Of a stretch of DNA of 26,534 nucleotides, positions 3,766 through 25,460 are shown in pieces. Every line of letters begins with the position of its first letter. Positions within the stretch are counted from its first letter, which is position 1. The notes beneath the pieces were generated by a model. The model saw only the letters and a list, made by a program, of their open reading frames with translations, searched no databases and was not told the DNA's origin. The position numbers and the translations under genes were made by a program. This DNA comes from a virus. The DNA lies in the IMG/VR virus record IMGVR_UViG_3300036800_000139, positions 1-26,534 of that record. One strand, given 5' to 3'.

Positions 3766-6700
3766 GTGGAGCGCAAGATCGTCAGGCACGCGGTGGGTGC
3801 CGCCGCGCATGAGGCCGCCCTCGACGCCGAGTTCCACCCCGGCCAGCGGGTGGTCACGATTGACGGCATCGCCGGCCGGATCCAGTTCGCCACGGCCTCA
3901 TTCGCGCCCGGCGTGACCGAGTACCAGGTGGTCCTGGACAACGGCATGGGCGGCGGCACGTACACCTCCAGCCAGCTGCGCGCCGTACCCGATAGTTATC
4001 GTGCACCGTCCGGCCCGCACGGCAACTTGCCCGCCGGGGTGACCGCCGGGCTTGAAGCCGAGGCCGGGGAGATCCACCTGGCCTCGGAGGATTACCCGGA
4101 GATGGGCCAGATCCTGCACGACCGGCCGGACCCCGCCGGGCTGATCCGGATGATCGGGTCCCGCCGCACCGCCGACGCCTACGCCCAGGGCTACGACGAG
4201 CGCGACGACGACCCCAACGGCGGCGAGGCCGACACCGGCATGTACTGGGAGGCCCCCGGCAACCAGCAGTGGCGCGACGAGAACCTGGGCGAACCGCCAG
4301 AGCCGCAGATCGAGGACGTGCCCGGCTATGGCCAGGAAGAGTTCGCCCAGAACGTGATGGCCCGGCTGCACCAGCTGGAGGACGCGGACCGGCTGGACGC
4401 CGTGGCCACCACGATCAACGGTGAGCAGATCGACGGCCACGGCGACGCCCCCGAGCACGGTTCCCGGCCCCGCGCCCAGGACCCGAACGCCTACGACGGC
4501 GAGTCCACCGAGGGCCAGGGCGACCCGGACCAGGACAAGCCGCTCTCCGGGATGGACGACGACACCGGCAACGGCGCCACCGCCGGGATGTTCCCCGCCG
4601 GGGTATCGGCCGGCGACGGCATGTTCGGCATGTCATTCGGGGCCGCATTCGGAGTTGATCAGGATAACTGGAATGACTGGAACAACTTCGCGGCGGACAA
4701 ACCCAGGGGCCCGCGTGGTGACCACGACACCGACGATGAGGACGAGCTGCACTACCCGGAGGAGCACCTCAAGCACGAGGCCCGGGTCCCGTGGACCGGC
4801 CAGGAGCGCACCGAGCTGCACAGCTGGGACAACGGCGCGGCGGCCAGCGCCGGCGACTTCGTCCCGTCGGGCAACTTCACCGGCCGCCATCCGCTCCAGC
4901 CGCACGAGCAGCTCAGCGAGCCGGCCCAGGAGGTCATCCAGCGGGAACTCCAGGCCCAGGCCGCTGTCCACCCGGACATCTTCTGCGCGGTCCGCCACGG
5001 CGGCCCGTGCCGCTACCCCGAGCCTATGCGGGTGCACGGCGAGTCGCTCCGCCACCCCCGGCCGCGCGGTTTCAGCTCCGAGATCCACCCGGTGGACAAC
5101 GACACCAGGGATCTGGCCCTGCGGACAGTCGGGCTCACCCCCACCCACGTGCTCAAGGGCTACCACAACGGCCAGCACGTCGGCAGCCTGCACTACCAGC
5201 AGAGCGACGACGGCAAGGCCGCCTACGTCACCAACCTGGAGAGCCACAAGACCGAGGGTCACGGTGTCGGCTCGGCAATGATGGACGATCTCTACTCGCA
5301 CGCCCACCGCAGCGGGATGTGGATTAACCACGGCCAGCGCACCACCGAGGGGATGAACTGGTGGAACAGCTACCGGGAGCCGCACCCGGAGCACAACGTC
5401 CACAACGCCATGCCCAACCAGGGGATCCAGGCCAGCTCTGAGCACCCGGGGGTGAAGTCCTGGCAGCACTACTGGGACCCCCGCGAGGTCGCGGCTGACA
5501 TGCACTTTCACAGCGAGGTGGATCCGGCTGGCAAGCACGAGCCGCCCCGGTTCAACCCGCACCTCTACGACGAGACGGCCGACTACAACCGGCACTGGAA
5601 GGGCTCCACCAAGCAGCTGCCGAAGGAGCAGGACCCGTTCGAGGGAGAGGCGATGCGTGACGCCATGCGCGATATGCGCGCTGGTGGTCACGGCGCTGAC
5701 GAGTACCACGGCTGGGGCGACCTGGCCCACACCGGGGCCACCCAGAGCCCCGACCACCACTACGCGCGGCACCTGATGGACGCCCACGGGTACAGCGAGG
5801 CGGACGTCGCCCGGGTCGCCGTTCACGGGCTGCACGACATGCACGGGGTGCTGCACCAGTCCGGCCTGGCCAGCCACACCCACTCAGACCTGCCCAGGGA
5901 GCTGGCCGAGGGCGCGCACCGGCACCAGACCAGCCAGGTGGCGGACACATTCGGCAAGTCGGTCAGCCGGCCGGTGATGCAGACGATGACCCGTCCGGAG
6001 AAGGGCGGCCACTCTGGTGAGTTCGACCCGGATCAGCTCAGCAGCACCCGCGTCCGGGCACCCGAGGACGTCTACGACCCGGCGAAGCTGCATGCCTACT
6101 ATTCCAGCCGTAGGGCTGAGGGGGGTGTGAGGGTCCGTACCAACGGTCCCGACGACTTTACCTTCCACCATGTCCCCGACGACGCGGAGGACCCGGCCAA
6201 CAGCCTGGACGAGGGCGACCCGGGCGAGGACAGCGCCCTGGACAACGAGCAAGACAAAAACGGCCTAGAAAACGGTGAAGACCCAGGCCAGGCCCCGGAC
6301 GGCAAGGACATCGGGGAGGACGCCGGCCTGGGCAATGAGACGGATCCGGACGGATCCAGAGCCGTAGGGAATGAGCCGCCGGGCAACCTGCCTGCCGGCG
6401 TTCAGCCGCCTGCGGCACCGTCCGGCCGGCCCCCGTCGGTGCCGCAGTCGGGTGACATGCCGGCGGAGACCTGGCCGCTGGCCACCGCCCCGGTGCAGGA
6501 GCGTCCGCTGCCGCTGAGCCAGGGCGGCAAGCCGTCGCCGAGCACGAAGCGGTCCAACCCGGTCAAGCTCCAGCTGCCCGGCGCGGGCGGCGGGGCCGAG
6601 GTGGACGGCGAGAAGCCGGGCAGCGATGACAAGGCGGCCTCGAAGGAGGCGGCGCTCGGCGCGTTCACGGCCGCCGCCGGGAGCCAGGCGTTCCGGTTCG

Positions 6701-8955
6701 AGTTCACCGCCAGCTGGCGCGACGTGGTGGCCAAGGCCAAGCGGCTCCGCAAGGGCGGCCGGGTCCGGATCACCCACGTCTCGGCCGGGATGGTGATCGG
6801 CGAGGTCGGCGGGGACCACGACGTCTACGAGTCCGGCATCCAGCGCCCCCCGGGCCGGCCGCAGACTATCCAGCACTGGGCCTGCGGCTGCCCGTGGGCC
6901 AGCTACCACCAGGACTCCAGCTACCCGGGCCGGCTGAACGGCCGGCCGTGCTCGCACGTCTACGCGCTCCAGCTGGAAGCCTCCGCCCGGAGCATGTTCG
7001 GCCGGGACCTCACCCAGGACCCGTCCGCCGACGAGGTGGGCGTGCCGCATCAGGTGGTGGTCAAGTCGATGCCGCCGTGGGGCGCGGGCGGCTGGGCGCA
7101 GACCTGGCTGGCCCCGGCGGCGAGCCTGCACAAGACCGCCGAGATGTTCTGCCCGGGGTGCTCTGGCGATAGGGACGACTACGGCCGTTGCATGGACTGC
7201 GGGCTCGTCTCCCGCGATCTGCGCCAGGAGCACCACCTGCCGGGAGCGGTAAACGTCCCGGCCTCGAAGATGGCCGGCCGGCACGAGCGGCCCGAGGCAG
7301 AGGACTGGGCCGAATCCCCCGAGGACGACACCGACTACGACTACTACGAGGGCGGCGGCGAGCCGAGCCCGTGGGGCGAGGGACGCCACCGCAGGCCGGC
7401 TCACGAGGCGGCGCTGGTCCTGGTGGCGGCCGGGGAGCCCCCGGCCGACGTCGAGCTGCTGGCCCGCACGGCCGGGATCGACCTGACCGCTGCGGCTAAC
7501 GACCCGTGGGGCGACAACAACTACGCCGAGCACCCGCCGGCCAAGCCGTACGGCGCCACCTCACCCCGGGACCCGGGCCAGAACCCGGCCAACACCGGAC
7601 CGCTGAACGCCCCCGACCCGGAAGACTGGGGCGAGATCCCCGACTCCGGCCTGATCGGCCCGATCACCTCCGAGAGTTCCCTGCCCGGCCTGGACCAGCC
7701 GGCCCAGGCGGTCCCGGACTCCCCGGGCGGCGCGGTGCCCTACGCGTACCGGACCAACACGGCGGGCCCGGCCACGGCGGCCGACCCGGCCGATCCCGGC
7801 GGGCTGTCGGTGGACGCGGCGCTCGACGACGACGCGCAGGGCCACGAGTACGAGCGGCACCTGATCGAGCACCACGGCGTCCCGGCTGACTGGGCCAGCC
7901 GGTGGGACCACGAGAAGCACCTGAACGACCACGACGAAGTGAACCAGATGGCTCACCGGGGCGACCCGCTGCCCGATGGCTACCGGCCGCACCCCTACCA
8001 CCAGACCGACTGGGAGCACCAGCGGGAACCGGGCAGCTGGCCGGACGCGGGGCACAGCCACAGCTTCACCGGGGCCGAGCACCGGGAGCTGCCCGACCAG
8101 ACCCCCGGCGCGGAGGTGCACCACCACCCCGAGTGCACTTGCCAGACCTGCGAATACAACCGCTACCACGCCAAGCACGCTGTCCAGCTGGCGGTCCAGG
8201 CAGGGCTCGCCGAGCTGGAGGCCAACATGGAAGCCTTCCAGGACGCCGGGGAAAGGGACCGGCAGCGGGCCGGGATCGACGGCACCGCCGGCGACGCCCA
8301 GGACATCCCGCACGCGTTCAGCGGCAATACCCCCTACTGCCGCTCGTGCCTGCTGTCACCGGACGCGGGAGTGCACCATCGCGGCGGGGCGCACAGCGAG
8401 TTCCACTCCACCCCGGAGCCGGCGCTGCCGGAGACCACAGCCGGCGTGGAAATGCCGGACACCGCCCAGGCGGGCCAGTTCGCGCTGGACCCGGGAGCCA
8501 CCGGGGGCGGGCCCGGGATGAGCCCCGACGACGAGAGCCTGAGCCCGTCGGACACCTCGATCCAGACGGTCGGCGAGGCGAACTTCGGCGGCAGTGACGA
8601 GCTGGCCGACAAGTCGTTCAGCGTGAGCCCGCACGAGACCGGAGCCGAGGCCTACTCCGATGACCCGGTCGCCCAGTTCCACGCCACGGCCGCCGCCCGG
8701 CAGTACGCAGGAGGAGGCGGGGCACCCGGGGGCGACGGCGAGATGGCCGCCGCCGCGAAGGCCTACCTGGCCAAGACGGCCGACGTGCTGCCCGACCACG
8801 AGGCCGCCGCGCTGATCTCCGAGGGCCGGGGCACCCGGGCCAGGAACCTGGACCTGCTCCAGCTGGAGGGGACCCACTACGAGGGTATCGACGACGAGCT
8901 GGGCAAGCGGGGCCTGAGCCTCGACTACTACGACGACGACCTGGCGGTGCTGTGA
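3766..8955 (+). CDS. Giant multidomain virion protein: SH3-like, GNAT-like, SWIM zinc and zinc-ribbon segments
   Basis: A 1729-residue protein starting with GTG behind GGGAGGCGGGA. Visible parts, in order: residues 23-75, an SH3/KOW-like beta segment (VVTIDGIAGRIQ...YQVVLDNGMGGGTYTSSQL); 85-330, acidic linkers; 460-545, a GNAT acetyltransferase-like fold with the acetyl-CoA loop G498-H-G-V-G502; 640-700, a His-rich segment with H-L-x3-H-G near 668; 800-960, acidic then Pro-rich disorder; 1000-1075, a SWIM zinc finger (C1040, C1042, C1062, H1064); 1129-1145, a CxxC/CxxC ribbon; 1360-1560, more His- and Cys-rich stretches including a second HLxxxHG. SWIM fingers bind nucleic acid or protein; GNATs acetylate amines. 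Lying between portal and protease, it may be a minor head or ejected protein, or a 'polyvalent' effector. The catalytic role is unproven. Confidence 0.75.
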   Translation: MERKIVRHAVGAAAHEAALDAEFHPGQRVVTIDGIAGRIQFATASFAPGVTEYQVVLDNGMGGGTYTSSQLRAVPDSYRAPSGPHGNLPAGVTAGLEAEAGEIHLASEDYPEMGQILHDRPDPAGLIRMIGSRRTADAYAQGYDERDDDPNGGEADTGMYWEAPGNQQWRDENLGEPPEPQIEDVPGYGQEEFAQNVMARLHQLEDADRLDAVATTINGEQIDGHGDAPEHGSRPRAQDPNAYDGESTEGQGDPDQDKPLSGMDDDTGNGATAGMFPAGVSAGDGMFGMSFGAAFGVDQDNWNDWNNFAADKPRGPRGDHDTDDEDELHYPEEHLKHEARVPWTGQERTELHSWDNGAAASAGDFVPSGNFTGRHPLQPHEQLSEPAQEVIQRELQAQAAVHPDIFCAVRHGGPCRYPEPMRVHGESLRHPRPRGFSSEIHPVDNDTRDLALRTVGLTPTHVLKGYHNGQHVGSLHYQQSDDGKAAYVTNLESHKTEGHGVGSAMMDDLYSHAHRSGMWINHGQRTTEGMNWWNSYREPHPEHNVHNAMPNQGIQASSEHPGVKSWQHYWDPREVAADMHFHSEVDPAGKHEPPRFNPHLYDETADYNRHWKGSTKQLPKEQDPFEGEAMRDAMRDMRAGGHGADEYHGWGDLAHTGATQSPDHHYARHLMDAHGYSEADVARVAVHGLHDMHGVLHQSGLASHTHSDLPRELAEGAHRHQTSQVADTFGKSVSRPVMQTMTRPEKGGHSGEFDPDQLSSTRVRAPEDVYDPAKLHAYYSSRRAEGGVRVRTNGPDDFTFHHVPDDAEDPANSLDEGDPGEDSALDNEQDKNGLENGEDPGQAPDGKDIGEDAGLGNETDPDGSRAVGNEPPGNLPAGVQPPAAPSGRPPSVPQSGDMPAETWPLATAPVQERPLPLSQGGKPSPSTKRSNPVKLQLPGAGGGAEVDGEKPGSDDKAASKEAALGAFTAAAGSQAFRFEFTASWRDVVAKAKRLRKGGRVRITHVSAGMVIGEVGGDHDVYESGIQRPPGRPQTIQHWACGCPWASYHQDSSYPGRLNGRPCSHVYALQLEASARSMFGRDLTQDPSADEVGVPHQVVVKSMPPWGAGGWAQTWLAPAASLHKTAEMFCPGCSGDRDDYGRCMDCGLVSRDLRQEHHLPGAVNVPASKMAGRHERPEAEDWAESPEDDTDYDYYEGGGEPSPWGEGRHRRPAHEAALVLVAAGEPPADVELLARTAGIDLTAAANDPWGDNNYAEHPPAKPYGATSPRDPGQNPANTGPLNAPDPEDWGEIPDSGLIGPITSESSLPGLDQPAQAVPDSPGGAVPYAYRTNTAGPATAADPADPGGLSVDAALDDDAQGHEYERHLIEHHGVPADWASRWDHEKHLNDHDEVNQMAHRGDPLPDGYRPHPYHQTDWEHQREPGSWPDAGHSHSFTGAEHRELPDQTPGAEVHHHPECTCQTCEYNRYHAKHAVQLAVQAGLAELEANMEAFQDAGERDRQRAGIDGTAGDAQDIPHAFSGNTPYCRSCLLSPDAGVHHRGGAHSEFHSTPEPALPETTAGVEMPDTAQAGQFALDPGATGGGPGMSPDDESLSPSDTSIQTVGEANFGGSDELADKSFSVSPHETGAEAYSDDPVAQFHATAAARQYAGGGGAPGGDGEMAAAAKAYLAKTADVLPDHEAAALISEGRGTRARNLDLLQLEGTHYEGIDDELGKRGLSLDYYDDDLAVL

Positions 8956-10565: not shown

Positions 10566-13229
10566 TTACTGAACGGGAAGGCCGAAACCGGAGACATGCA
10601 GCCAAAGGGCGTAGGCGGCATCGGCCTGCGCGTCCGCCTGGTACGCCTTGAAGAAGGCCGGCGCGGCCTGGATCGGGTCGCCGGTTGATTTGGCCTCGCG
10701 CCAGAACTGCCATAGCCGCAAGGCGATGTTCAGCTTTTTCTGGTAGTCGGCCCAGAGCCAGTCCGCCGTCGGCGGGCTGATGATCCAGCTCGCGGTCAGC
10801 ACGCCGGTCCCGGACAGGACCGCCGATCCGGGCACCGGGATGATCGGGGCGCTGCTGAGCGAGCCCGAGCCGAGAAGCACGATCATCTCGCTGAGAGTCA
10901 GCGCTGCATTTGCTGCCAGCGTCCCGGACCCGGACAGGGACAGCGGGGGCGCGATGATCAGCCCGGCGGCGCTGAACAGGCCCTCTCCGGACAGCGCTGC
11001 GCCGCCGTTGGCCGTGATGCTCGTGCCGACAGCCAGGGTGCCAGATCCGGAAATCAAGGCCAGCGCGTTGAAGACGCGCACGCCAGCGCCGCCCAGGGTT
11101 CCCTGCCCGGACAAATTGACTGCCGCAAGAATGAGTGGCATGCCCCCCAGTGAGCCTGTCCCGGCCAGCGCTGCGGCGGCTGCGAGAACGGGGGCCGCGC
11201 TGAACGATCCCAGCCCGGCCAGCGGAACGGCCGGCGCGAACGCCGGGGCCGCGCTGAACGATCCCAGCCCGGCCAGCACGGTGCCGGACCGGAACGCCGG
11301 GGCCAGGACCAGCGAGCCAGACCCGGCTAGCACGGCCCCTGCTACAAAGCGCGCGGAGGACACGGCCAGCGAGCCGGATCCGGCCAGCACGGCAAAGTTG
11401 AAGCCGGAGACCATGGCGCTCAGCGTGCCGGTGCCGGACAGGGCTGCCGCCCAGCCGATTGTTTCGGCTGCCGACAGCGTGCCCTGCCCGGCCAGCGGCA
11501 TTGAGCCGGGGTAAACCGCCCCTGCGCTCAGCACCCCTGATCCGGAGAGAATCGCGATTACCCCGGCGATTTCAGCAGTGTGCAGGGTGCCCGATCCGGA
11601 CAGCACCGCAGCCGGCGTGAACACCGGAGAATCTGCCAGTGTCCCGGCGCCAGCCAGCGCCGCCGCTGCGCTGAACCTGGAGGTAGCGCTCAGCAAGCCA
11701 GTTCCTGCCAGCGCTGCCGCCCCGGCGAACCTGGATGGCAGGGAAAGCGTGCCAGAACCGGATAGGACGATGGAGCCGAACTGGGAGGTGTCCGGTCCGA
11801 ACCAGCCGGCGCCGGTCAGGCCGATGCTGTCGTGGTAAATCCCGGCCCAGGTCTGCGCGGTCGCGGCCTGCGCGCCAAACGCGGCCACGTTGACCGGGCT
11901 GCTGCTGGTAATCGTGCCAGAGACGGTCTCGTCCGGGGTGGTGCCGGAGAAGTTGGAGCCGTAGAAGCACCGGAGCGTGACGCTGTAGGCAGAGCCGTTG
12001 TAAGAGACCTGGCATTCGTATCTGTTCCTGGTCCCGGCGGTGACCGCCGTCGCGGCCTGCCCCTGCCAGGCCCCGGCCCCCAGGTCCCTGATGCCCAGCT
12101 TCCCGGTGGTGTCCATGCAGATGCCCCATACGTCTACCGACGCGAGGTCGTCCTGGAACTTAGACAGCCGCATCAGGACTGGCGGCAATGATGCGATTGA
12201 GAAATAGTCCCGGACGTACCAGGGCACCGACGAGGCGTTGAAGCCGAGAGCGAACGAGTCCCGCCATTCCAGCGTGGTGGTCGAATTTCCCGCCAGTGGG
12301 GTGCCGCCGGCCAGCGTGCCGATAATGGCGCCGGCCGAGGAGTAGGCGGGCAGCGTGGCGGATCCGCCCAGCGAATCCCACGGGCTGCCTGACAGGCCCC
12401 CGGAGTTGGCCACGCTGATCACGGTGCCGCTGCTGCCGCCCTCGAAGCTGTTGGTCAGCGTGGCCTGGACCGTGGGACTGGCCGTCAGGGCGCCCGAGCC
12501 GGACAGGGCGGCAGCAGCCGGGCGGGTGCCTGCCGCTGCCAGGGAGCCACTCCCGGACAGGGCCGCTGATCCTGAGAACGAGCCGGCCTGGAACGTCCAC
12601 ATGACCCCGCGCCACGCGGCGGAGACGATGGTCAGGGTGGATGTCTGCGCCGTGCCGGAGCCCCCGGTCAGCACGTCGTACGCCATCGTGTTGTACGGGT
12701 TGGTCCCGCTCTGCCAGATACCAACCGAGGTGAACGGGCTGTTGATCGTGGGGCTTCCGCCGCTGCCGGCGGTCACGAACCCGGCGATGCAGGTCTCGTT
12801 GGCAGCAGCGGGGGTGGCCGAAACCGACGGGGTAGTGGAGGTGCCGGTGGTGACGGTGCTGATCTGATCGACAGCACCGACCCCTGGGGCGTCAGCAGCG
12901 ATCAGCTCGACGTTGCCGCTGACCGCAGCGGTGGTCAGCGTCCAGGTGTCCGTCACTGCCAGGCCGGCGGTCGGGCCGCCGCCGGAGCCCCCTGTAGCGC
13001 CGGGGCTCCGGAACCCGTACAGCATCGGGCTGGCGGTCGTGAATGACTTGTCCAGGGTGTACTGGTTGCCCTGGGAATCGGTCAGCGCTGAGACCGTGCA
13101 GCTGGTGTTGTTGACGCTGATGACGACCAGCAGCGTGTCGCCCGGCGAGGTGGCGGCGGTGACTGCGTAAGAACGGCTGGAAAGCGACGAGCTTACGGTC
13201 GATCCGCCGATCTGGGACGGGTTGGCCAT
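10566..13229 (-). CDS. Large tail-fibre-like protein with about 20 L(S/A)GSGxL repeats
   Basis: An 887-residue protein, ATG at 13229 behind GAGGG. Residues 1-215 form a Ser/Thr/Gly beta-rich head that starts ANPSQIGGSTVSS and looks like phage or cell-surface adhesin domains. Residues about 250-475 resemble a LamG/concanavalin-type beta-sandwich (RDSFALGFN, YVRDYFSIASLPP, GIRDLGAGAW, YECQVSYNGSAYSVTLRCFY). Two repeats lie before this and eighteen after it, each about 17-20 residues with core L(S/A)G-x-G-x-L(S/A). The last 65 residues are helical and aromatic (DWLWADYQKKLNIALRLWQFW) and may be a trimerisation or attachment tip. Such proteins bind host surface polymers. A receptor-binding or fibre role is inferred from composition and neighbours. 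Confidence 0.72.
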   Translation of the reverse strand: MANPSQIGGSTVSSSLSSRSYAVTAATSPGDTLLVVISVNNTSCTVSALTDSQGNQYTLDKSFTTASPMLYGFRSPGATGGSGGGPTAGLAVTDTWTLTTAAVSGNVELIAADAPGVGAVDQISTVTTGTSTTPSVSATPAAANETCIAGFVTAGSGGSPTINSPFTSVGIWQSGTNPYNTMAYDVLTGGSGTAQTSTLTIVSAAWRGVMWTFQAGSFSGSAALSGSGSLAAAGTRPAAAALSGSGALTASPTVQATLTNSFEGGSSGTVISVANSGGLSGSPWDSLGGSATLPAYSSAGAIIGTLAGGTPLAGNSTTTLEWRDSFALGFNASSVPWYVRDYFSIASLPPVLMRLSKFQDDLASVDVWGICMDTTGKLGIRDLGAGAWQGQAATAVTAGTRNRYECQVSYNGSAYSVTLRCFYGSNFSGTTPDETVSGTITSSSPVNVAAFGAQAATAQTWAGIYHDSIGLTGAGWFGPDTSQFGSIVLSGSGTLSLPSRFAGAAALAGTGLLSATSRFSAAAALAGAGTLADSPVFTPAAVLSGSGTLHTAEIAGVIAILSGSGVLSAGAVYPGSMPLAGQGTLSAAETIGWAAALSGTGTLSAMVSGFNFAVLAGSGSLAVSSARFVAGAVLAGSGSLVLAPAFRSGTVLAGLGSFSAAPAFAPAVPLAGLGSFSAAPVLAAAAALAGTGSLGGMPLILAAVNLSGQGTLGGAGVRVFNALALISGSGTLAVGTSITANGGAALSGEGLFSAAGLIIAPPLSLSGSGTLAANAALTLSEMIVLLGSGSLSSAPIIPVPGSAVLSGTGVLTASWIISPPTADWLWADYQKKLNIALRLWQFWREAKSTGDPIQAAPAFFKAYQADAQADAAYALWLHVSGFGLPVQ
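10770..11780 (-). repeat. Tandem 51-60 bp coding repeats of the fibre gene
   Basis: Eighteen consecutive units encode variants of ALSGSGTLSA plus 7-10 variable residues; two more units lie outside this span near 12480-12570. Units are diverged at DNA level, except that two adjacent ones near 11190-11270 encode the same GLGSFSAAP core, indicating recent duplication. Confidence 0.85.
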
Positions 13230-15873: not shown

Positions 15874-18800
15874 ATGATCCGCAAGCACGCGGCTTTGCAG
15901 GTTCTTGAGGCGTGGAAGGTTCCCTCCCACGCCTCGCCTGAGTCGCTGCGGAAAGTAGCCCACCGCGTTGATTTTCAGTACGAAGCACGCAAAGGGTACC
16001 TTTACGTCCGCGCTCGGGCCATCTCTTCTCGCTGCAATGACAATCACGATGCTTTTCCGGAAGACGAGATTGAAAAGGGCTGGAAGTCGTTCATCGGGAA
16101 GCCTGTCTTCGTCAACCACCACAACAGCAACCACCGCCGCGCACGCGGGGTCATTGTTGCGGCAGCCTTGCACCGGGACCGGAACCCAGACGGGTCTCCG
16201 GACACCTGGGTGGAGGTTCTCCAGGAGGTAGACGCGGCCCGCTTCCCGCTGCTGGCCAAGGCGATCCTCGCCCGGCGGGTCAACCGGACCTCGATGGGCG
16301 TGGACGTCGAGTGGTCCAAGTGCTCGGCGTGCGGCAACAAGGCCACCTCCCCGGCCGAGTACTGCCGCCACCTGCCCGCGCTCAAGGGCAAGAAGATCCG
16401 CAAGCGGGGCGCCGACGGCAAGTTGCGCGAGGAGATCATCCGCGAGATCTGCCACGGGCTGTCGTTCTTCGAGAACAGCCTGCTGGTGGAGGACCCTGCG
16501 GATCCTACGGCGTTCCTGCTTGGCGAGCCGGATGCGCGCGGGCTCAAGATGTCGGCCAGCAGACACACCGCCGCGCCCGCCGGGCCGCACCCCGGCCGGC
16601 TCCAGGGCGGCTCGTGCAAGGAGAACTGCACCTACGGCGGCACCCACTGCCTGATGTGCCACGAGCCGGTCGCGATCAACCTGCACAAGACCGATACCTC
16701 CACCGCGGGCTGGCACCACGCGGACTCCATGAAGCGTGACCACCCGGCGATCCCGTCCGACGGCGAATCGGTCATCAGCTCGATCCCGGCCCAGCAGGCC
16801 CAGAAGGACCAGGCCCGCGAGCACGTCAACGACGTCCTGGAGCGCCAGGGGCTGCCCCGGCGCCAGCCGCAGGGCATGCCGCCCGACCCATTCACCGCCT
16901 CGCTGCGGAAGAACGCCTCGGCCGACGACGACAACCTGTACGCGCTGACCGGCTGCCATCACACCTCCTGCGGCCGGACCCTTCACCGGGGCCGGACCGC
17001 CTCCGTGCAGATCAACGAGGACCGGCTGCACAGCTATACCCCCGACGCGCCCAGCGAGCCGGACCGGCGCCTGATCGAGGGTGCCCGCTCCTACTCGGCC
17101 AAGGCCGGCCTGCCCGACCCGCACGAGTCCGGCTACTCACACGTCGAGACCCATCCGGACCGGCTCCGCCGGCTGGCCCGCGCCTATGACTCGCTGCCGA
17201 TGAACGACCGCAACGCGCACCACGCGTTCGCCGACATGGGCCGGCAGGTGCACGACCAGTACCACCACCTGACCCACACGATGGGGATCAAGGTCGAGCC
17301 GGTTGATCACGACCCGTACCCCGATCACCACTCGATGCTCGCCGACCTCCGGGACAACAAGCGGCTCCAGGTTCTCAAGACGGCCACCACCGGCCCGCAC
17401 GGATTCTTCGACGACAACACCAATGACAAGTTCCGCGCGGTGCACGACGCGTTCGGCCACGCGGCCACCGGCCGCTCCTTTGACCGGCACGGCGAGGAGG
17501 CGGCCTGGCTGGCCCACTCCCGGATGTTCCACGGCCCGGCGCGGCACGCGATGACCACCGAGACGCGCGGCCAGAACTCGATGCTGATCGCCACTGGCCA
17601 GTTCGCTCCCCAGAAGACGGCGCTCCTGCCACCCAGCTTCCTGAGCAGAGAGGCCAGCATGCTGACCACTGCCCCGCCGCTCGCCTACGTCCCGCTGATG
17701 GCCGAGGCGGCCAGCAGGCCCGCGTACCAGGACCCGGCGGACCACCCGTTCTTCAAGGCGAACCCGGTCAACCACCAGCACATCGTGGACGCCTACTTCG
17801 CGGCCACCGACGACCAGCGCAACCTGGGGCACCGCTGGTACTCCGACGCGCACCACCTGGCCCGCGCGATCTCCGGCAACGACCCGCACAAGGGCGGCGG
17901 CGTGCTGTCGTCCTACTCCCCGCAGGCCGGCTGGGGCATCAACATGCACAACGCCTCGAAGGCGTTCCGGGCGCACGCGGCCGGCGAGGAGATCCCCGGC
18001 AAGGGCTCCGGCGCGATGAGCATGCACCAGAAGGCTGCCAGCAGGATCCTGTCCGGCGAGTCGATCGACAAGGTGCTCCGGGCGCCGAAGACCAACGCGT
18101 TCGCCCACCTGATCGAGCACGGCGGTGATTCGCCGGAAGACAAGGCCCGGGGCCACAGCCTCGTGGTGGTGGACCGGCACGCGATGAGCACGGCGATCGG
18201 CCGGCGGACCACGGGCGACGACGACCTGTCTTTCCTGAGCAACCCGCACTACTACAACCACGTCGCCGACACGTTCCGGCACGCCACCCACGAGATCAAC
18301 CAGAAGACCGGCCTGAACCTGGATCCCCACATGACGCAGGCCGCCGTCTGGGGATGGCAGAAGTCCAAGAACGACGCGGAAGACGAGCACACGGCGGCCG
18401 GCAAAGGCCGGAAGAGCCGGGAGGTCAACGACTTCCGGCGCTGGAACGAGCACGCTACCGATGCCCACCCGGACATCCCGCGCGGTGGCGCCGGCAACAT
18501 GCACGTCAGCGTCCGCCAGGCGTACCTGGATGCGATCCGGGCGCTGGCGTACGGGGAGGACAAGGTCCCCGCCCAGGTGAACACGCTGCGCGCCGAGAAC
18601 TGCCCGGTCTGCGGCGAGCAGGACGCCTGGTCCGGTGAGCGGTGCCCGGTCTGCGGCTTCGTCACCCCGCCGAGCATGTTCCGCGACCCGGACACCGACA
18701 AGGCCGGCGAGGTCCGCGACCAGCTGGACAGCTCGGGCGAGGTAAACCTCCCGTCCGAGGCGGACGAGGCGGCCCAGTCGGCCCGCAACGGCGAGGGCGG

Positions 18801-20061
18801 CGACCCGCAGGGCAGCGACCCGGACGCGGACCGGCAGATGGACCACCCGGACCAGGTCGCCCCGGACGGCGTCCCGGCTGCGCAGCAGGGCTCCGACACT
18901 CAGGCCGAGCAGAACCCAGAGGACCCCTCCGAGGAGCCCCAGGACGAGGCGAACGCCCAGGCGTCGATGCTCGGCTGCCCCGCCTGCGGCGCCCAGCTGG
19001 GGGCCCAGGAGCCCGGCGCGGCGGAGGGCGCCCCATGCCCGCAGTGCGGAAACGGACGGCTCGGGCCTGTAGCTAACGACCCGGCCGCCCAGAAGGAGCA
19101 GAGGCCATCCGGACCCGGAGGGACAGTAATGGGAAGTGCAAAGGACTCCGCAGCCGCAGCGAGCGTGCAGCGGCAGGCGGCACTGGAGCGGGAGAACCGC
19201 GTCCTGCGCGCCCAGCTGGCGATGCTGGGCAGCCTGGCTGGTGTCGGCCCGGAGATGGACGCGATCCGGCGCCAGGCGGACGTGATGAACCCCGGCTCCC
19301 CGGTGCCGGACCCGCCGGAGCAGCCGGCCACCCAGTCCACCGAGGAGGCGCTGGCCGCCGGCAGCTCGCACGCAGGCGGCGGGCAGCAGGGCTCGGCGCC
19401 GATGGGCGGCGGCCACTCGGTTGACGACGTGTCCCGGCCCGGGACCACGCCGGGCTCGGTGACCAACGTCCCGGCCGTGCAGACCACCACGCCAATCACC
19501 CCGGGCGTCGAGATCCCGACCGCCCCGGCCACCAACCTCCAGGACGTCACCGCCCCGGTGACCGGGACCAACCCGGCCCAGGACGGCGGGGTCCCGCTGG
19601 ACCAGCGCCGGATCGAGACCGACGTCCGGATCGACCCGGACCCGCTCAAGGCGTCCGGCCCCGGCATCGGCGGCATGGGCAATGACGGGACCGCGTTCCC
19701 GTGGCTCGGCGGCGACAAGCAGGATCAGATGGCCAAGGGCGCCAGCCTCCAGGACCAGCAGGCGGAGCGGACGTTCGCCGCGATCCGGCTGGCCCGGCTG
19801 CGGGTGCAGGCCGGGCTGGACCAGGGCGATGAGCTGACGGTCGCGGCGGGCATCGAGCGCGACGCCACGCTGAGCCTGCCGGTGATCGCCCGGGAGATCG
19901 AGACCCTGGGCCGGGTCGCCTCGGCCCAGCCCCGCCGCCCAAGCCAGCAGCGGACCGCCTCGCGGCCCCCGTCGCTGGCCCCCAGCGGCGCCCCGATGAT
20001 GGCCTACGCCTCGGCTGCGTCCACCGACGCGGGCGACGCCGAAGACATCTTCCTCGGCTGA
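15874..20061 (+). CDS. Prohead protease fused to polyvalent domains and scaffold-like tail
   Basis: A 1395-residue protein, ATG behind AGGAG. Residues 20-225 read as a T4 gp21-like capsid maturation protease: FPEDEIEKGWKSFIGKPVFVNHH (H82/H83), a ARGVIVAAAL strand, VDAARFPLLAKAIL, RTS140MGVDVEWSKCSACG, and GLSFFENSLLVEDPADPTA. His and Ser are candidate catalytic residues. Residues 384-585 form a domain with VH524DAFGH and T562ETRGQNS. Residues 610-850 form another, with SYSPxxxW near 681-687 and VVVD767RHA. Two CxxC/CxxC ribbons follow (910-927 and 1035-1058), then a helix (RQAALERENRVLRAQLAML) and a Pro-rich tail like scaffold segments. It precedes the decoration and capsid genes, as such proteases usually do. 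The middle domains resemble phage polyvalent-protein modules of unknown chemistry. Confidence 0.8.
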   Translation: MIRKHAALQVLEAWKVPSHASPESLRKVAHRVDFQYEARKGYLYVRARAISSRCNDNHDAFPEDEIEKGWKSFIGKPVFVNHHNSNHRRARGVIVAAALHRDRNPDGSPDTWVEVLQEVDAARFPLLAKAILARRVNRTSMGVDVEWSKCSACGNKATSPAEYCRHLPALKGKKIRKRGADGKLREEIIREICHGLSFFENSLLVEDPADPTAFLLGEPDARGLKMSASRHTAAPAGPHPGRLQGGSCKENCTYGGTHCLMCHEPVAINLHKTDTSTAGWHHADSMKRDHPAIPSDGESVISSIPAQQAQKDQAREHVNDVLERQGLPRRQPQGMPPDPFTASLRKNASADDDNLYALTGCHHTSCGRTLHRGRTASVQINEDRLHSYTPDAPSEPDRRLIEGARSYSAKAGLPDPHESGYSHVETHPDRLRRLARAYDSLPMNDRNAHHAFADMGRQVHDQYHHLTHTMGIKVEPVDHDPYPDHHSMLADLRDNKRLQVLKTATTGPHGFFDDNTNDKFRAVHDAFGHAATGRSFDRHGEEAAWLAHSRMFHGPARHAMTTETRGQNSMLIATGQFAPQKTALLPPSFLSREASMLTTAPPLAYVPLMAEAASRPAYQDPADHPFFKANPVNHQHIVDAYFAATDDQRNLGHRWYSDAHHLARAISGNDPHKGGGVLSSYSPQAGWGINMHNASKAFRAHAAGEEIPGKGSGAMSMHQKAASRILSGESIDKVLRAPKTNAFAHLIEHGGDSPEDKARGHSLVVVDRHAMSTAIGRRTTGDDDLSFLSNPHYYNHVADTFRHATHEINQKTGLNLDPHMTQAAVWGWQKSKNDAEDEHTAAGKGRKSREVNDFRRWNEHATDAHPDIPRGGAGNMHVSVRQAYLDAIRALAYGEDKVPAQVNTLRAENCPVCGEQDAWSGERCPVCGFVTPPSMFRDPDTDKAGEVRDQLDSSGEVNLPSEADEAAQSARNGEGGDPQGSDPDADRQMDHPDQVAPDGVPAAQQGSDTQAEQNPEDPSEEPQDEANAQASMLGCPACGAQLGAQEPGAAEGAPCPQCGNGRLGPVANDPAAQKEQRPSGPGGTVMGSAKDSAAAASVQRQAALERENRVLRAQLAMLGSLAGVGPEMDAIRRQADVMNPGSPVPDPPEQPATQSTEEALAAGSSHAGGGQQGSAPMGGGHSVDDVSRPGTTPGSVTNVPAVQTTTPITPGVEIPTAPATNLQDVTAPVTGTNPAQDGGVPLDQRRIETDVRIDPDPLKASGPGIGGMGNDGTAFPWLGGDKQDQMAKGASLQDQQAERTFAAIRLARLRVQAGLDQGDELTVAAGIERDATLSLPVIAREIETLGRVASAQPRRPSQQRTASRPPSLAPSGAPMMAYASAASTDAGDAEDIFLG

Positions 20062-21128: not shown

Positions 21129-22145
21129 ATGAACGCTCTGGCCCCCACGGCGGACGGGCAGCTGGCTCTGGCGCCGCAGGCTGGCCTGCGCCCGCGTACG
21201 GCCGCCCGGAAGTCGGATGACTACGTCTCCAACATCCTCGCCCGCCGCGAGGGCAAGTCGCCGCTGACCCGCGAGGCCAAGGTCCGCAAGATGGCCCTGA
21301 TCCTCTCGGACGAGATGCACGGCTTCCGCCGGCTGGGCGTCGGCATGGTCGGCCCCATCCAGCTCAAGCTGCGCTACCAGGGCATCACCCGCAACGTGCT
21401 CGTCGAGGACCCGGTCACCCCCGGCACCCCCGTCGAGTACGACGTCTGGGACGACCTCGGCCAGGCGTACCTGATGTCCGGCACCGAGGGCGAAGTGCGG
21501 GTCACCCCGTTCGAGGGCAAGCGGATCCCGGTGCGGTTCTTCCGTATCGCCTCCCGCCCGGCGATCCGCAAGGAGGACCTGTTCTACCTCCGCATCAACG
21601 CGGTCGAGCAGGCCCAGGACGAGACCAAGCAGGCGATCCTCAAGCAGGAGGACGCCCGGCTGCTGGTCATCCTCCAGGCGGCCGTGACGGACTACGCCAC
21701 CCGCCCCGACCACGTGGTGACCCCCAACCACAACATCACCGAGGCGTCCGGCTACCTGACCCCCGGCTCGCTCTACAGCGCGGTCTCCATGACTGACCTG
21801 CACGAGCTGCCCTCGGCCCGGCTGCTCATCAACCCGTTCGACTTCCGGGACATGTACCGCTGGGACATCAACCAGACGGGGTGGGCGTTCAAGGACCGGG
21901 TCGTGGCCGGCGAGACGATCACCTCGTTCGGCGAGTTCCAGGTCCAGCGCTCGATCATCGTCCCGCAGGCGAAGATCTTCCTCACGCCCGAGCCGAACTT
22001 CCTGGGCGTGTTCCCGATCCTGTACAGTCTCGACGTGGAAGAGAACCATAACGTCGAGGCATTCTGGAAGGGATGGGTCTTCGACGAGATGGTGGCCATG
22101 AGCATCCTGAACCCGCGCGGAATCGCAACCATCACCAAGTCGTAG
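21129..22145 (+). CDS. Major capsid protein (HK97-type fold)
   Basis: A 338-residue protein; ATG at 21129 follows AGGAAAGGA. N-terminal residues 1-50 are helical and may be a removable delta or scaffold segment; then comes an extended region, YQGITRNVLVEDPVTPGTPVEYDVWDDLGQAY. Mid-protein EQAQDETKQAILKQEDARLLVILQAAV is the long spine helix expected in the fold. Near the end, SARLLINPFDFRDMYRWD, VVAGETITSFGEFQVQRSIIV and EPNFLGVFPILYSLDVEEN fit the A-domain and P-domain strands of capsid proteins in SPO1/T4-like and large actinophage families. It is the last gene of the protease-decoration-capsid block and is followed by a terminator. A longer upstream start would overlap the decoration gene and is rejected. 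Confidence 0.82.
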   Translation: MNALAPTADGQLALAPQAGLRPRTAARKSDDYVSNILARREGKSPLTREAKVRKMALILSDEMHGFRRLGVGMVGPIQLKLRYQGITRNVLVEDPVTPGTPVEYDVWDDLGQAYLMSGTEGEVRVTPFEGKRIPVRFFRIASRPAIRKEDLFYLRINAVEQAQDETKQAILKQEDARLLVILQAAVTDYATRPDHVVTPNHNITEASGYLTPGSLYSAVSMTDLHELPSARLLINPFDFRDMYRWDINQTGWAFKDRVVAGETITSFGEFQVQRSIIVPQAKIFLTPEPNFLGVFPILYSLDVEENHNVEAFWKGWVFDEMVAMSILNPRGIATITKS

Positions 22146-22323: not shown

Positions 22324-23541
22324 ATGACCGACTATACCCACGACCAGCGCACTCCCCTGGCAGTGCAGATGGCTGCCGCAGGCGCCTCGCGGGAGGAGAT
22401 CGCCGCCGAGTTCGGCGTCTCCATGCAAACCGCCAGCCGCCTGGTCAAGGCAGGCGGGGGCAAGATCAGGATCCCTGGCGGCCAGAAGATCGGCAAGAAG
22501 CCAAAGTATCTCTCTCGCGTTCTGGCGCTGCACGACGCTGGCAGCTCCGTCGGGCAGATCGAGGAAGAGATCGGCGACGTCCACCACAGCACCATCGCTG
22601 TGTGGCTCCGCGAGGCTGGCCGCAGCCCCCGTTACACGGGAGACATCCGGATCCCCGTCCGGGTGGAGGACGATCCCCGTCGGCCTGAGGCAATCGCCCG
22701 CTACCTCGCTGGGGAAACAGCCCCGGCCGTGTCCAAGAGCATGGGCCTCAGCGAGCGCACCGTGGAGTGGTGGGCCAAGCAGGACGGGGTCTGGGGCCAG
22801 GGCGGCATCCAGAAGCGCCAGCGGGACGCAGCGCAGGAGGCGGTCAGGCTATTCCGCGAGGGCATGCCGCTCGGGTCGATCGTCACCAGGTCCCGGCTGG
22901 ACTACTACCAGATCCGGTTCGCCCTGGACGAGGCCGGGATCCTCTCCTACACCGATGACGAGAAGCCGGATATCTGGTGTCCCTGTGGCCAGAAGACCGG
23001 GCACCCGGGGCGCAAGTACTGCTCCCAGGAGCACAAGCTCGAATACGGCACCAAGCGCCAAGCCGACCCGGCCAACCAGGTCACCCTCACCTGCTTGAAC
23101 TGCACAAAGGAGTTCACCCGTCCTCGCAGCCAAACCAACGCGGGCAAGTACTGCTCGAACGAGTGCTCGTCCAAGCACAACCGGACCAAGCAGCACATCG
23201 TAATCGAGGACGCGCTGGTGCTCGACTCGCCATTCGAGGCACTCTTTTACGGGCTCTGCCGGCTCTGGAAGATCCCCTGCGACCGGGCCGACCGCGCCGA
23301 GGCCATCCCGGTAAACGGCAGCGGATGGTACTGCCCGGACTTCTACCTGCCGCAGCTCCAGCTCTACGTGGAGATCAAGGGGTTCGAGGACGACGACGAC
23401 CGCGCCCGGTGCGACGAGTGGCGGAAGACCAGGCCGCTGGCGGTCCTGCGACGCGAGGAGCTGCACGTGCTCCGTACCAGGGCCAACGACAGCGTCGTCA
23501 AAGAACAGCTCAAAATCTGGGCATACGAGCAAGCGTCGTGA
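22324..23541 (+). CDS. Multi-HTH, double zinc-finger, PD-(D/E)XK nuclease-like protein
   Basis: A 405-residue protein. Four helix-turn-helix-like units occur in the first half: residues 11-42 (AAGASREEIAAEFGVSMQTA), 63-98 (DAGSSVGQIEEEIG..STIAVWL), 122-152 (APAVSKSMGLSERTVEWW) and 165-205 (REGMPLGSIVTRSRLDYYQI). Then come two treble-clef-like zinc motifs, C219xC221..C233xxxH237 and C257xxC260..C277xxxC281. The end has PD-(D/E)XK signature residues: E305 in SPFEALFYG, D339 in CPDFYLP, then E350-I-K352-G. Such layouts suggest a site-specific DNA nuclease, probably a free-standing homing endonuclease beside the capsid gene. It has its own promoter and sits between the capsid terminator and the next gene. 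A transposition- or defence-related role is also possible. Confidence 0.72.
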   Translation: MTDYTHDQRTPLAVQMAAAGASREEIAAEFGVSMQTASRLVKAGGGKIRIPGGQKIGKKPKYLSRVLALHDAGSSVGQIEEEIGDVHHSTIAVWLREAGRSPRYTGDIRIPVRVEDDPRRPEAIARYLAGETAPAVSKSMGLSERTVEWWAKQDGVWGQGGIQKRQRDAAQEAVRLFREGMPLGSIVTRSRLDYYQIRFALDEAGILSYTDDEKPDIWCPCGQKTGHPGRKYCSQEHKLEYGTKRQADPANQVTLTCLNCTKEFTRPRSQTNAGKYCSNECSSKHNRTKQHIVIEDALVLDSPFEALFYGLCRLWKIPCDRADRAEAIPVNGSGWYCPDFYLPQLQLYVEIKGFEDDDDRARCDEWRKTRPLAVLRREELHVLRTRANDSVVKEQLKIWAYEQAS

Positions 23542-24228: not shown

Positions 24229-25233
24229 CTAGCGGAGCACGACCACCTGCGTGCCGCCGATCAGCTTGCGGTTGTAGCTGGTGGACTGGACGAACACCTT
24301 GCAGTCGGTGTGCAGGTCGCGCGGGTTGACCTTGACCGCGTAGTCCGGCAGCCCGAGCAGCGAGCGGGCCTCCTGGAGCGTGCCCGAGTAGAGCACCCCG
24401 CCGGCCTCCACCAGCACATCCTTGTAGTCCTGGATCGTGACCGGCTTGGTCAGCTGGTAGTAGACGCGGCCCTTCGGGTACGGCCGCCTGGTGACGCTCT
24501 CCACGAACAGGTCGATCCGGGAGTCGCCGGGCACCGGGTAGACGCCGTAGGCGCCCGAGGTGATCGGGGTGAGCCGGGCCTGGACGTCGGCGGCCGAGAA
24601 GCTGCCCGGGGTGAACATGCCGCTCCTGGCGCCGCGCACGCCCTGCGAGCGGCCCTCGAAGAACGACCGGGAGGTTTCCTTGATCCGCTCGCCGAGCATC
24701 TCCACGGCACGATGCGCGTTCGGGTCCCACTTCTCGATGGACCCGGCCGGGAAGCCGCACGCCTCGGCGTAGCGGACTCCCCGGAGGTCGGGGACGAACA
24801 CGCCCTCGGTCCAGTTCTCCTCCAGGCCGGCCAGCCGGGAGCTGAGCTGCTGCGGGCGCTGGCGGCTGGAGTTCTCCTGGCCGTCGGTGAAGGTGTAGCC
24901 GAGCATGGCGTGGTCGCCGTGGATCTGCGGGATGCGGCGCATGTCGTCGATGCTCGTGCATACGGCGTCGATCAGCGCGGTGTTGCCGCTCGCGCGGTAG
25001 AGGCCGGCGATCGAGGGGAACCGGAGCACGTCCATGTCCCAGACCACGTTCTCGACGCCGTGGTTGAACAGCCAGACCGAGAGCCGGGTCTCCTGGTCGA
25101 AGATCTTGGACTGCTCGGCCAGGTCGGCGACGAGGTTGTCCACGACCTGCACGACCGCCGCCGAGTGCGGGGTCATGCTGAGCGACTTGTCGATGGTGAG
25201 TGCTACGTGGTTGACCTTGTGCTCGATGCTCAT
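24229..25233 (-). CDS. von Willebrand factor A (vWA) domain protein
   Basis: A 334-residue protein; ATG at 25233 is preceded by CAGGAG at a 6-nt gap. Residues 8-200 form a vWA domain with a complete metal site (MIDAS): D15-K-S17-L-S19, T85 in SGNTALID and D117 in FTDGQEN. Such domains bind Mg2+ and a partner protein and often work with a MoxR/RavA-type AAA+ ATPase. Residues 225-334 form a beta-rich C-terminal domain (GVYPVPGDSRIDLFVES, GRVYYQLTKPVTIQDYKD). No ATPase gene is in this window. Phage copies are found in large actinophage genomes with unknown roles; host interaction or metal stress are possibilities. Confidence 0.85.
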   Translation of the reverse strand: MSIEHKVNHVALTIDKSLSMTPHSAAVVQVVDNLVADLAEQSKIFDQETRLSVWLFNHGVENVVWDMDVLRFPSIAGLYRASGNTALIDAVCTSIDDMRRIPQIHGDHAMLGYTFTDGQENSSRQRPQQLSSRLAGLEENWTEGVFVPDLRGVRYAEACGFPAGSIEKWDPNAHRAVEMLGERIKETSRSFFEGRSQGVRGARSGMFTPGSFSAADVQARLTPITSGAYGVYPVPGDSRIDLFVESVTRRPYPKGRVYYQLTKPVTIQDYKDVLVEAGGVLYSGTLQEARSLLGLPDYAVKVNPRDLHTDCKVFVQSTSYNRKLIGGTQVVVLR

Positions 25234-25271
25234 GCGGTGCTCCTGACTGAGGGGGTCTGCTTCGAGGCTCT

Positions 25272-25289
25272 CGCCTAGGTTGCTTGTAT
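25272..25289 (-). promoter_or_regulatory. Operator-like palindrome, diverged copy 6
   Basis: CGCCTAGGTTGCTTGTAT, read on the forward strand, matches 13 of 18 consensus positions. It lies 39 nt upstream of the vWA start, so it is placed like the other copies. On the reverse strand TACGAT lies beside it as a possible -10. Confidence 0.4.
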
Positions 25290-25325
25290 CGTATCGCGGG
25301 GGTCTGACATTTTCCGGGGTGCGCC

Positions 25326-25460
25326 AGCGCCGGGGCCGGACCATACGGCCAGACCCTGGTCACCCCTGCGCTAGCGCCGGGTGTAACACGCTTGCGCCGG
25401 TCTGACCCTTACGTTTGCGCCGGGGTCACCAATACGTTTATGGCCGGTACGACGTTATAC
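25326..25460. repeat. Iteron-like repeats beside AT-rich sequence
   Basis: Four adjoining units of 22-24 nt start at 25369, 25391, 25414 and 25437, sharing a (T)TTGCGCCGGnnTnACnnnTACG-like pattern, with a fifth related unit near 25326-25347. An AT-rich stretch (about 25455-25500) follows. Tandem 22-23 bp units next to easily melted DNA resemble replication-origin iterons or partition sites. No replication initiator is visible nearby, so the role is inferred. The whole 298-nt gap 25234-25531 holds no credible gene. Confidence 0.5.

Follow-up and report, generated by a model that had tools for sequence, protein, structure and literature searches.

How does the gene for a viral capsid maturation protease come to hold two further domains between its protease and scaffold ends, and what might they do there? 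The question is raised by a 26,534-nt stretch of viral DNA (IMG/VR record IMGVR_UViG_3300036800_000139, positions 1 to 26,534; hereafter, the window), in which a single open reading frame (ORF) encodes, in this order, a protease, two domains designated D1 (residues ~394-589) and D2 (residues ~621-841), zinc ribbons and a scaffold-like tail. The polyprotein is made by a virus of bacteria; in it, a shell-maturing enzyme shares one chain with an enzyme that probably cuts DNA bases, another enzyme-like domain and a scaffold. Our favored reading, held with moderate confidence, is that it represents a capsid assembly polyprotein of the lambda C/Nu3 type that would load enzymes into the head, with D2 acting as a glycosylase and D1 as its metal-dependent partner.

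A preliminary description made from the DNA letters had placed the fusion at positions 15874-20061, and we could confirm that one frame is open there from end to end. Coding on the plus strand was borne out by protease and D1 homologues with 70-80% identity; a 986-residue antisense ORF covering the polyprotein region was discarded as an artefact of high GC content, given that the homology lies entirely on the plus strand. The polyprotein ORF is part of a head operon, being preceded by a portal gene (PHROG 2833) at the window's left end and followed by the gene for the major capsid protein. No close relative of the 26.5-kb record was found among cultured phages, the nearest at the DNA level being Bxz1-like and related large phages of Mycobacterium, Gordonia and Rhodococcus. 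Loci collected from relatives are given as L numbers where they need to be told apart.

Sequence comparison supported the view that the N-terminal part corresponds to a capsid maturation protease. Residues 61-209 matched PHROG 18299 (‘head maturation protease’, E 3e-19), and the gene is located between those for the portal and the major capsid protein, as for gp77 of Rhodococcus phage E3, which is annotated ‘prohead protease’ and occupies the equivalent position directly upstream of the minor and major capsid protein pair. Among 21 aligned sequences, H82 and S140 were invariant, as was a Cys/His cluster inside the protease (C150, C153, C164 and H166). Of the residues singled out earlier (H82/H83 and S140), H83 drops out, as it varies among relatives (NHEN in LinStu). 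The expectation that such proteases normally measure 200-300 residues fails in this lineage, where homologous protease ORFs without D1 or D2 comprise 852 (Phrappuccino gp53), 895 (E3 gp77), 1084 (CherryTomatoes gp94) and 1286 residues (LinStu gp97). A paper on the Myrna capsid, which identifies gp98 as the minor capsid protein, does not cover the protease. Since every one of these cultured relatives has a long protease ORF, length alone is not what sets the window ORF apart; its unusual part is the middle. The Bxz1-like polyproteins (LinStu gp97, Phrappuccino gp53 and E3 gp77) share with it the protease, an AYGE...VDTLR motif, the scaffold-like tail and the gene order, but their protease ORFs lack D1 and D2, which LinStu and E3 encode elsewhere (gp104-gp105 and gp205, respectively).

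At the other end of the polyprotein, the two zinc ribbons noted earlier are present (C910-C927 and C1035-C1058), the first directly following the conserved AYGE...P..VDTLR motif. The tail, initially described as long, disordered and scaffold-like, is scaffold-like in being homologous to free-standing ORFs of ~300-350 residues between the protease and capsid genes of relatives (L085, L089, L090, L093, L094, L095 and L099), and it is not merely disordered. These separate scaffold ORFs start at about the place equivalent to M1086. Of 23 distinct fused ORFs, 20 have a Met followed by [KR]x[AG] at the equivalent position, versus 0 of 419 control windows from the same linkers; the accompanying ribosome-site signal consists of weaker purine-rich stretches in several relatives. 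To judge from these sequence features, the internal start would yield free scaffold. In lambda (C protease/Nu3) and herpesviruses (UL26/UL26.5), an N-terminal protease and a C-terminal scaffold are likewise encoded in one frame, with free scaffold (Nu3 and UL26.5) produced from an internal start. The window ORF resembles these systems in being protease-first and scaffold-last with a conserved predicted internal start, but differs in that enzyme-like domains of ~200 residues and zinc ribbons are inserted between protease and scaffold.

Which activities the insert might contribute is most readable for D2. The domain recognized earlier by its SYSPxxxW...VVVDRHA signature is real, corresponding to Pfam DUF7178 (PF23802; E 2.8e-30, residues 635-826). 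A predicted model built with 25 sequences reached a predicted local distance difference test score (pLDDT) of 88.9. Its best fold match was the 8-oxoguanine glycosylase/lyase of M. jannaschii (3knt; Z 10.9 over 176 residues, 3.7 Å), followed by the 8-oxoguanine glycosylase of T. maritima (3n0u; Z 10.7), with Z scores obtained by aligning the 1000 best chains from Foldseek. The 20 top entries (Z 5.1-10.9) comprised helix-hairpin-helix glycosylases, the queuosine salvage glycosidase 7ugk and one archaeal (Pyrococcus) protein, 1xg7, after which the next entry dropped to Z 3.7. K739 and D767 were invariant in 87 of 87 diverse D2 sequences, including free-standing podovirus and siphovirus proteins, and R768/H769 were near-invariant. 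The resulting K...(V)DRH arrangement is that of bifunctional members of the helix-hairpin-helix glycosylase superfamily, the putative equivalence of K739 and D767 to the catalytic pair of the fold being based on a line-up of motifs. D2 thus shares with Ogg2-type 8-oxoguanine DNA glycosylases (3knt and 3n0u) its predicted fold and, by motif comparison, the Lys plus Asp-Arg-His motif, while its Lys-Asp stretch is longer and variable.

Several results weigh against this assignment. At the sequence level, D2 gave no HhH-GPD match in Pfam and no profile match in the PDB that would tie it to the superfamily, DUF7178 alone being matched; no Foldseek hit reached a significant E value; and the Z scores lie within the chance range for helical folds. 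The case is therefore built on the uniformity of the match list together with the conserved residues, and for want of a sequence-level match we file D2 as a fold-level member only. With these qualifications, the modeled fold is that of a helix-hairpin-helix glycosylase, and the chemistry of D2, which the preliminary description could not name for either middle domain, has become largely readable. We consider it rather improbable that, within this fold, D2 is instead inactive or directed at nucleotides, in the manner of DUF2419, the queuosine salvage enzyme (Z 8.7), and acts on free nucleotides or defense signals instead of DNA. That 7ugk is the third-best fold match and that Pfam lists the family as a DUF would suit such a role, whereas the two top matches are DNA 8-oxoguanine glycosylases and the K...D(R)H arrangement is, by motif, that of the DNA enzymes.

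The distribution of D2 outside head operons bears on its timing. Free-standing D2 genes of Kumao, Triumph, Cece and Skog are annotated ‘glycosylase’ by some database annotators. Such genes are among the first in the genomes of the podoviruses A-4L, S-CBP2 and ICBM2 and lie near a genome end in Streptomyces and Mycobacterium siphoviruses, positions that suggest work at the start of infection. Small phages may express D2 first, and large phages possibly bring it along in the virion. In E3 gp205 (L005/L087), the D2 match (residues 443-528 and 803-854) is interrupted by ~270 residues, as if a domain or intein had been inserted in the glycosylase fold.

The second domain noted earlier, VHDAFGH...TETRGQNS, is likewise real: residues 343-589 matched PHROG 3170 (E 2e-60), with more than 60 distinct viral homologues. 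An AlphaFold2 model of D1 scored a pLDDT of 87.9 and a predicted template modeling score (pTM) of 0.82. Residues invariant across 62 sequences include H524-D525, G528-H529, E541, H548, E563 and Q567, a set that looks like a metal site. Fold and profile searches of the PDB retrieved no relative, the profile matches being chance matches. Against viral models, D1 matched uncultured-phage proteins labeled ART-PolyVal, large polyvalent, NAT and phage head morphogenesis; small phage proteins, part of them encoded by T7-like phages, gave weaker matches. A scan of 84,980 species yielded just four cellular loci, so that D1 is essentially a phage family at that sensitivity. One of the four bacterial loci encodes a free-standing D1 of ~230 residues in a Micromonosporaceae genome (L121, 3254-3958), with an N-6 DNA methylase-like and a protein kinase-like gene recognized by eye as neighbors. 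Other D1 proteins carry a match to LAGLIDADG homing endonucleases (L006, 5038-8187; 1049 residues, E 1e-8) or an additional DUF6321 (L053, L065 and L068; E 1e-28 to 4e-30).

Two enzyme classes were considered for D1 and rejected. The HDxFGH motif equals HDIFGH of bacterial aromatic amino acid hydroxylases, with TETRG paralleling TVEFG by eye, and hhalign placed the HDxFGH motifs in register with a score of 29.1, higher than 60 of 60 column shuffles (best, 25.7). The same alignment had a probability of 6% and a core of 8 columns, Biopterin_H was absent from the Pfam families listed for the 62 D1 members, and phenylalanine hydroxylase 6hyc gave a Foldseek TM of only 0.16 and was not among the rows with Z ≥ 2. 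The motif likeness thus failed testing, with neither profile nor fold backing, and we regard it as distinctly unlikely that D1 is a true hydroxylase-like non-haem iron enzyme with H524, H529 and E563 as iron ligands. A gluzincin-type metallopeptidase was dismissed as well, as the match to selecase (Z 2.7) is meaningless alone and the spacing is HDxxGH rather than HExxH.

Rather than forming one continuous scaffold, the middle of the polyprotein is predicted to contain independent domains. Separate models of D1 and D2 (pLDDT 88 and 89) and their occurrence as separate genes elsewhere support this view, and the domain boundaries could be fixed because L090, L092 and L093 encode protease, D2, zinc part and scaffold as four consecutive ORFs. 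D1 and D2 are fused in the window, L002/L003, L004, E3 gp205 and L063, adjacent in Skog (165 and 166) and LinStu (gp104 and gp105) and at most 3 kb apart in Dagobah. Conversely, D1 was absent from the regions read around free-standing D2 in podoviruses and siphoviruses, Dagobah excepted, which makes D2 independent of D1, and most D1 loci lack D2. The two domains thus recur together in unrelated phages, and neither needs the other. That the window simply encodes an ordinary long protease of Bxz1-like myoviruses, with D1 and D2 as functionless passengers, would fit the protease ORFs of 852-1286 residues that do without them. This appears highly improbable given the repeated pairing and the sets of residues that stay invariant in both domains across large divergence.

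Comparison with relatives revealed a slot of variable content between protease and zinc ribbon, with lengths of 309-1519 residues. Of 47 distinct protease ORFs, 41 have D2 after the protease and ahead of the zinc/scaffold part and six lack it there, a count biased by the many loci that were fetched with D2 as the query; loci fetched with the protease alone contained D2 in 14 of 14 cases. D1 occurred in the window and two others only. Further domains in the slot include, for L004, a ParB-C match (PHROG 2579, E 1e-24) and an Arr-type ADP-ribosyltransferase (ART)-like match (E 0.0023, below the Pfam cut-off), for L099, a GNAT-like match slightly below the cut-off (E 8e-4) and, for LinStu gp97, an L5 gp82 domain (E 4e-22). 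The L099 and L004 slots also contain two copies each of repeated HGPY(H/E)V(I/V)(R/K)HPET...HVVD.AGR units.

These contents agree with the likeness to polyvalent proteins proposed in the preliminary description, in that relatives place other candidate effector domains in the slot and D1 itself occurs in the proteins labeled ART-PolyVal, large polyvalent and phage head morphogenesis. Polyvalent proteins combine at least two enzymatic domains in a single phage polypeptide near virion genes (PMC5512222), as the window ORF does with its protease and modeled D2 glycosylase fold in a head operon; the slots of relatives show ART-like and GNAT-like (both sub-threshold) and ParB-type domains. Assemblin-like peptidases of polyvalent proteins were noted only at C-termini (Iyer et al. 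2017, PMC5512222), whereas the window protease is N-terminal, belongs to a capsid operon and, together with the scaffold, is itself the carrier. None of the catalogued polyvalent domains (ART, GNAT, ParB, metallopeptidase and LPD) was matched in the window ORF, and D1 and D2 match no named LPD. Whether the slot is swappable we regard as an even call: the scaffold end would carry any insert into the procapsid and the protease would free the cargo for injection with the genome, the standard load here being a DNA glycosylase with or without D1 as a metalloenzyme partner.

Candidate processing sites fall at domain borders. At a fixed position near the N-terminus, the capsid proteins of this family have [RK]xA in common, conserved in 25 or more of them, and we took this motif to stand in for the protease site. 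In the linkers of the polyproteins, [RK].A[AS] occurred 76 times versus 24.0 ± 4.8 in shuffles, compared with 18 versus 14.2 in the domains. The window polyprotein alone contains eight copies versus 2.1 expected (p = 0.001), of which A348, A376 and A594 lie at the junctions of D1 and of D1/D2, and the Phrappuccino polyprotein shows the excess as well (12 versus 2.2). On the opposing side, the more distant LinStu polyprotein has no excess of the strict motif (4 versus 2.4), the motif itself is deduced from conservation, and the enrichment z-score is inflated because the tested polyproteins are related. As some of these sequences had, in addition, been seen before the strict motif was fixed, we treat the enrichment as support, not proof.

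Taken with the domain assignments, these sites suggest a path from assembly to infection, its assembly steps modeled after lambda C/Nu3 and its delivery after T4 Alt or the P1 Dar proteins. Through its scaffold end, a minority of the full-length fusion would be recruited to the procapsid, beside free scaffold made from M1086. On maturation, the protease would cut itself, the scaffold and the capsid protein at [RK]xA sites, so that the scaffold would be destroyed and D1 (~24 kDa) and D2 (~33 kDa) would be released as separate enzymes within the head, from which they would enter the host with the DNA. There, D2 would act as a helix-hairpin-helix N-glycosylase, probably with lyase activity given its invariant Lys and Asp, on host or phage DNA bases at entry, with D1 as its putative metal-dependent partner. 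T4 Alt and internal proteins and P1 DarA/DdrB, several of which undergo proteolytic processing, are packaged into the head and injected or thought to be so (in part from PMC5512222), but they are encoded by separate genes with their own targeting, whereas the window cargo is fused within the protease-scaffold gene.

A competing explanation, which we judge fairly unlikely, is that D1 and D2 act in assembly only, checking or trimming DNA during packaging or serving as scaffold spacers, and never enter the host, being lost by degradation or expulsion together with the scaffold. An assembly part would be expected to occupy the slot of all 14 loci found with the protease query, as D2 does, and to share the scaffold neighborhood. 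Such a role is harder to reconcile with the invariant candidate catalytic residues of D2, with the lack of D1 in most relatives and with free-standing D2 genes that lie away from the head genes of small phages, among the first podovirus genes or at genome ends. Telling against delivery by the particle, the sole pointer to D1 or D2 in virions is the word ‘structural’ in the annotation of the E3 gp205 fusion (‘structural protein’), and no proteomic study of E3 or Bxz1-like virions was found in the literature searched. Coordinates of all features of the polyprotein are compiled in Table 1.

Table 1 Features of the polyprotein ORF and the major capsid protein gene in the window (a slash marks the putative scissile bond).
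Feature	Position	Strand	Basis and remarks
Polyprotein ORF, 1395 residues	15874..20061	+	AG-rich Shine-Dalgarno-like stretch immediately 5' of ATG
Capsid maturation protease core, residues 41-215	15994..16518	+	PHROG 18299 and 2774; invariant H82 (16117-16119) and S140 (16291-16293)
Second candidate cleavage site before D1, K-N-A348/S	16909..16917	+	[RK].A[AS] motif; putative cleavage
Candidate cleavage site before D1, R-T-A376/S	16993..17001	+	Motif; RHTA in L002, GRTA in L004; putative cleavage
D1, residues 381-589	17014..17640	+	PHROG 3170; H524-D-x-x-G-H529, E541, H548, E563-T-R-G-Q
Candidate cleavage site between D1 and D2, R-E-A594/S	17647..17655	+	Motif; RDA/A in L002, REA/A in L004; putative cleavage
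D2, residues 621-841	17734..18396	+	DUF7178; K739 and D767 as candidate catalytic residues; fold predicted to be that of helix-hairpin-helix glycosylases
Zinc ribbon, C910-x2-C913 ... C924-x2-C927	18601..18654	+	Sequence; weak DZR match; kept in relatives
Second zinc ribbon, C1035-x2-C1038 ... C1055-x2-C1058	18976..19047	+	Sequence
Candidate internal start M1086	19117..19131	+	GGAGG (19117-19121), 7 nt, ATG (19129-19131), in frame
Scaffold-like tail, residues 1086-1395	19129..20061	+	Homology to separate ORFs of relatives; acidic C-terminus DAEDIFLG
Major capsid protein	21129..22145	+	PHROG 2522; N-terminal motif LRPRTA25/ARKSDDYV, proxy for the protease site (putative cleavage)

Several other genes of the window were noted. 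A GTG-started ORF of 1729 residues (3766-8955, plus strand) is located where LinStu and E3 encode their LysM protein (gp96 and gp76, respectively); its sole match is PHROG 30974, a GNAT-like stretch was seen by eye without Pfam confirmation, and it is possibly a further multi-domain virion protein. Within the head operon, an 887-residue ORF on the minus strand (10566-13229) is rich in repeated SGSGTLSA-type units, has no family match and resembles a fiber or adhesin-like protein. Directly after the capsid gene, a helix-turn-helix (HTH) plus HNH-like protein (22324-23541, plus strand) matched several HNH/HTH PHROGs, and LinStu encodes an HNH endonuclease at the matching position. A 371-residue ORF (24229-25344, minus strand) belongs to PHROG 26613 and begins with a von Willebrand A-like stretch (VALTIDKSLSM...) recognized by eye.

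In the literature searched, we found no paper on a fusion of protease, cargo and scaffold or on an N-terminal capsid-operon protease with the scaffold as carrier. If the favored reading is true, a single gene would handle the loading, processing and release of injected enzymes, and it would offer a natural design for placing foreign proteins in phage heads, in a lineage whose numerous relatives include mycobacterial, gordonial and rhodococcal ones. A function would also be assigned to DUF7178, a glycosylase fold that marine, cyanobacterial and Streptomyces phages encode among their early genes, and PHROG 3170 would be named as its partner family.

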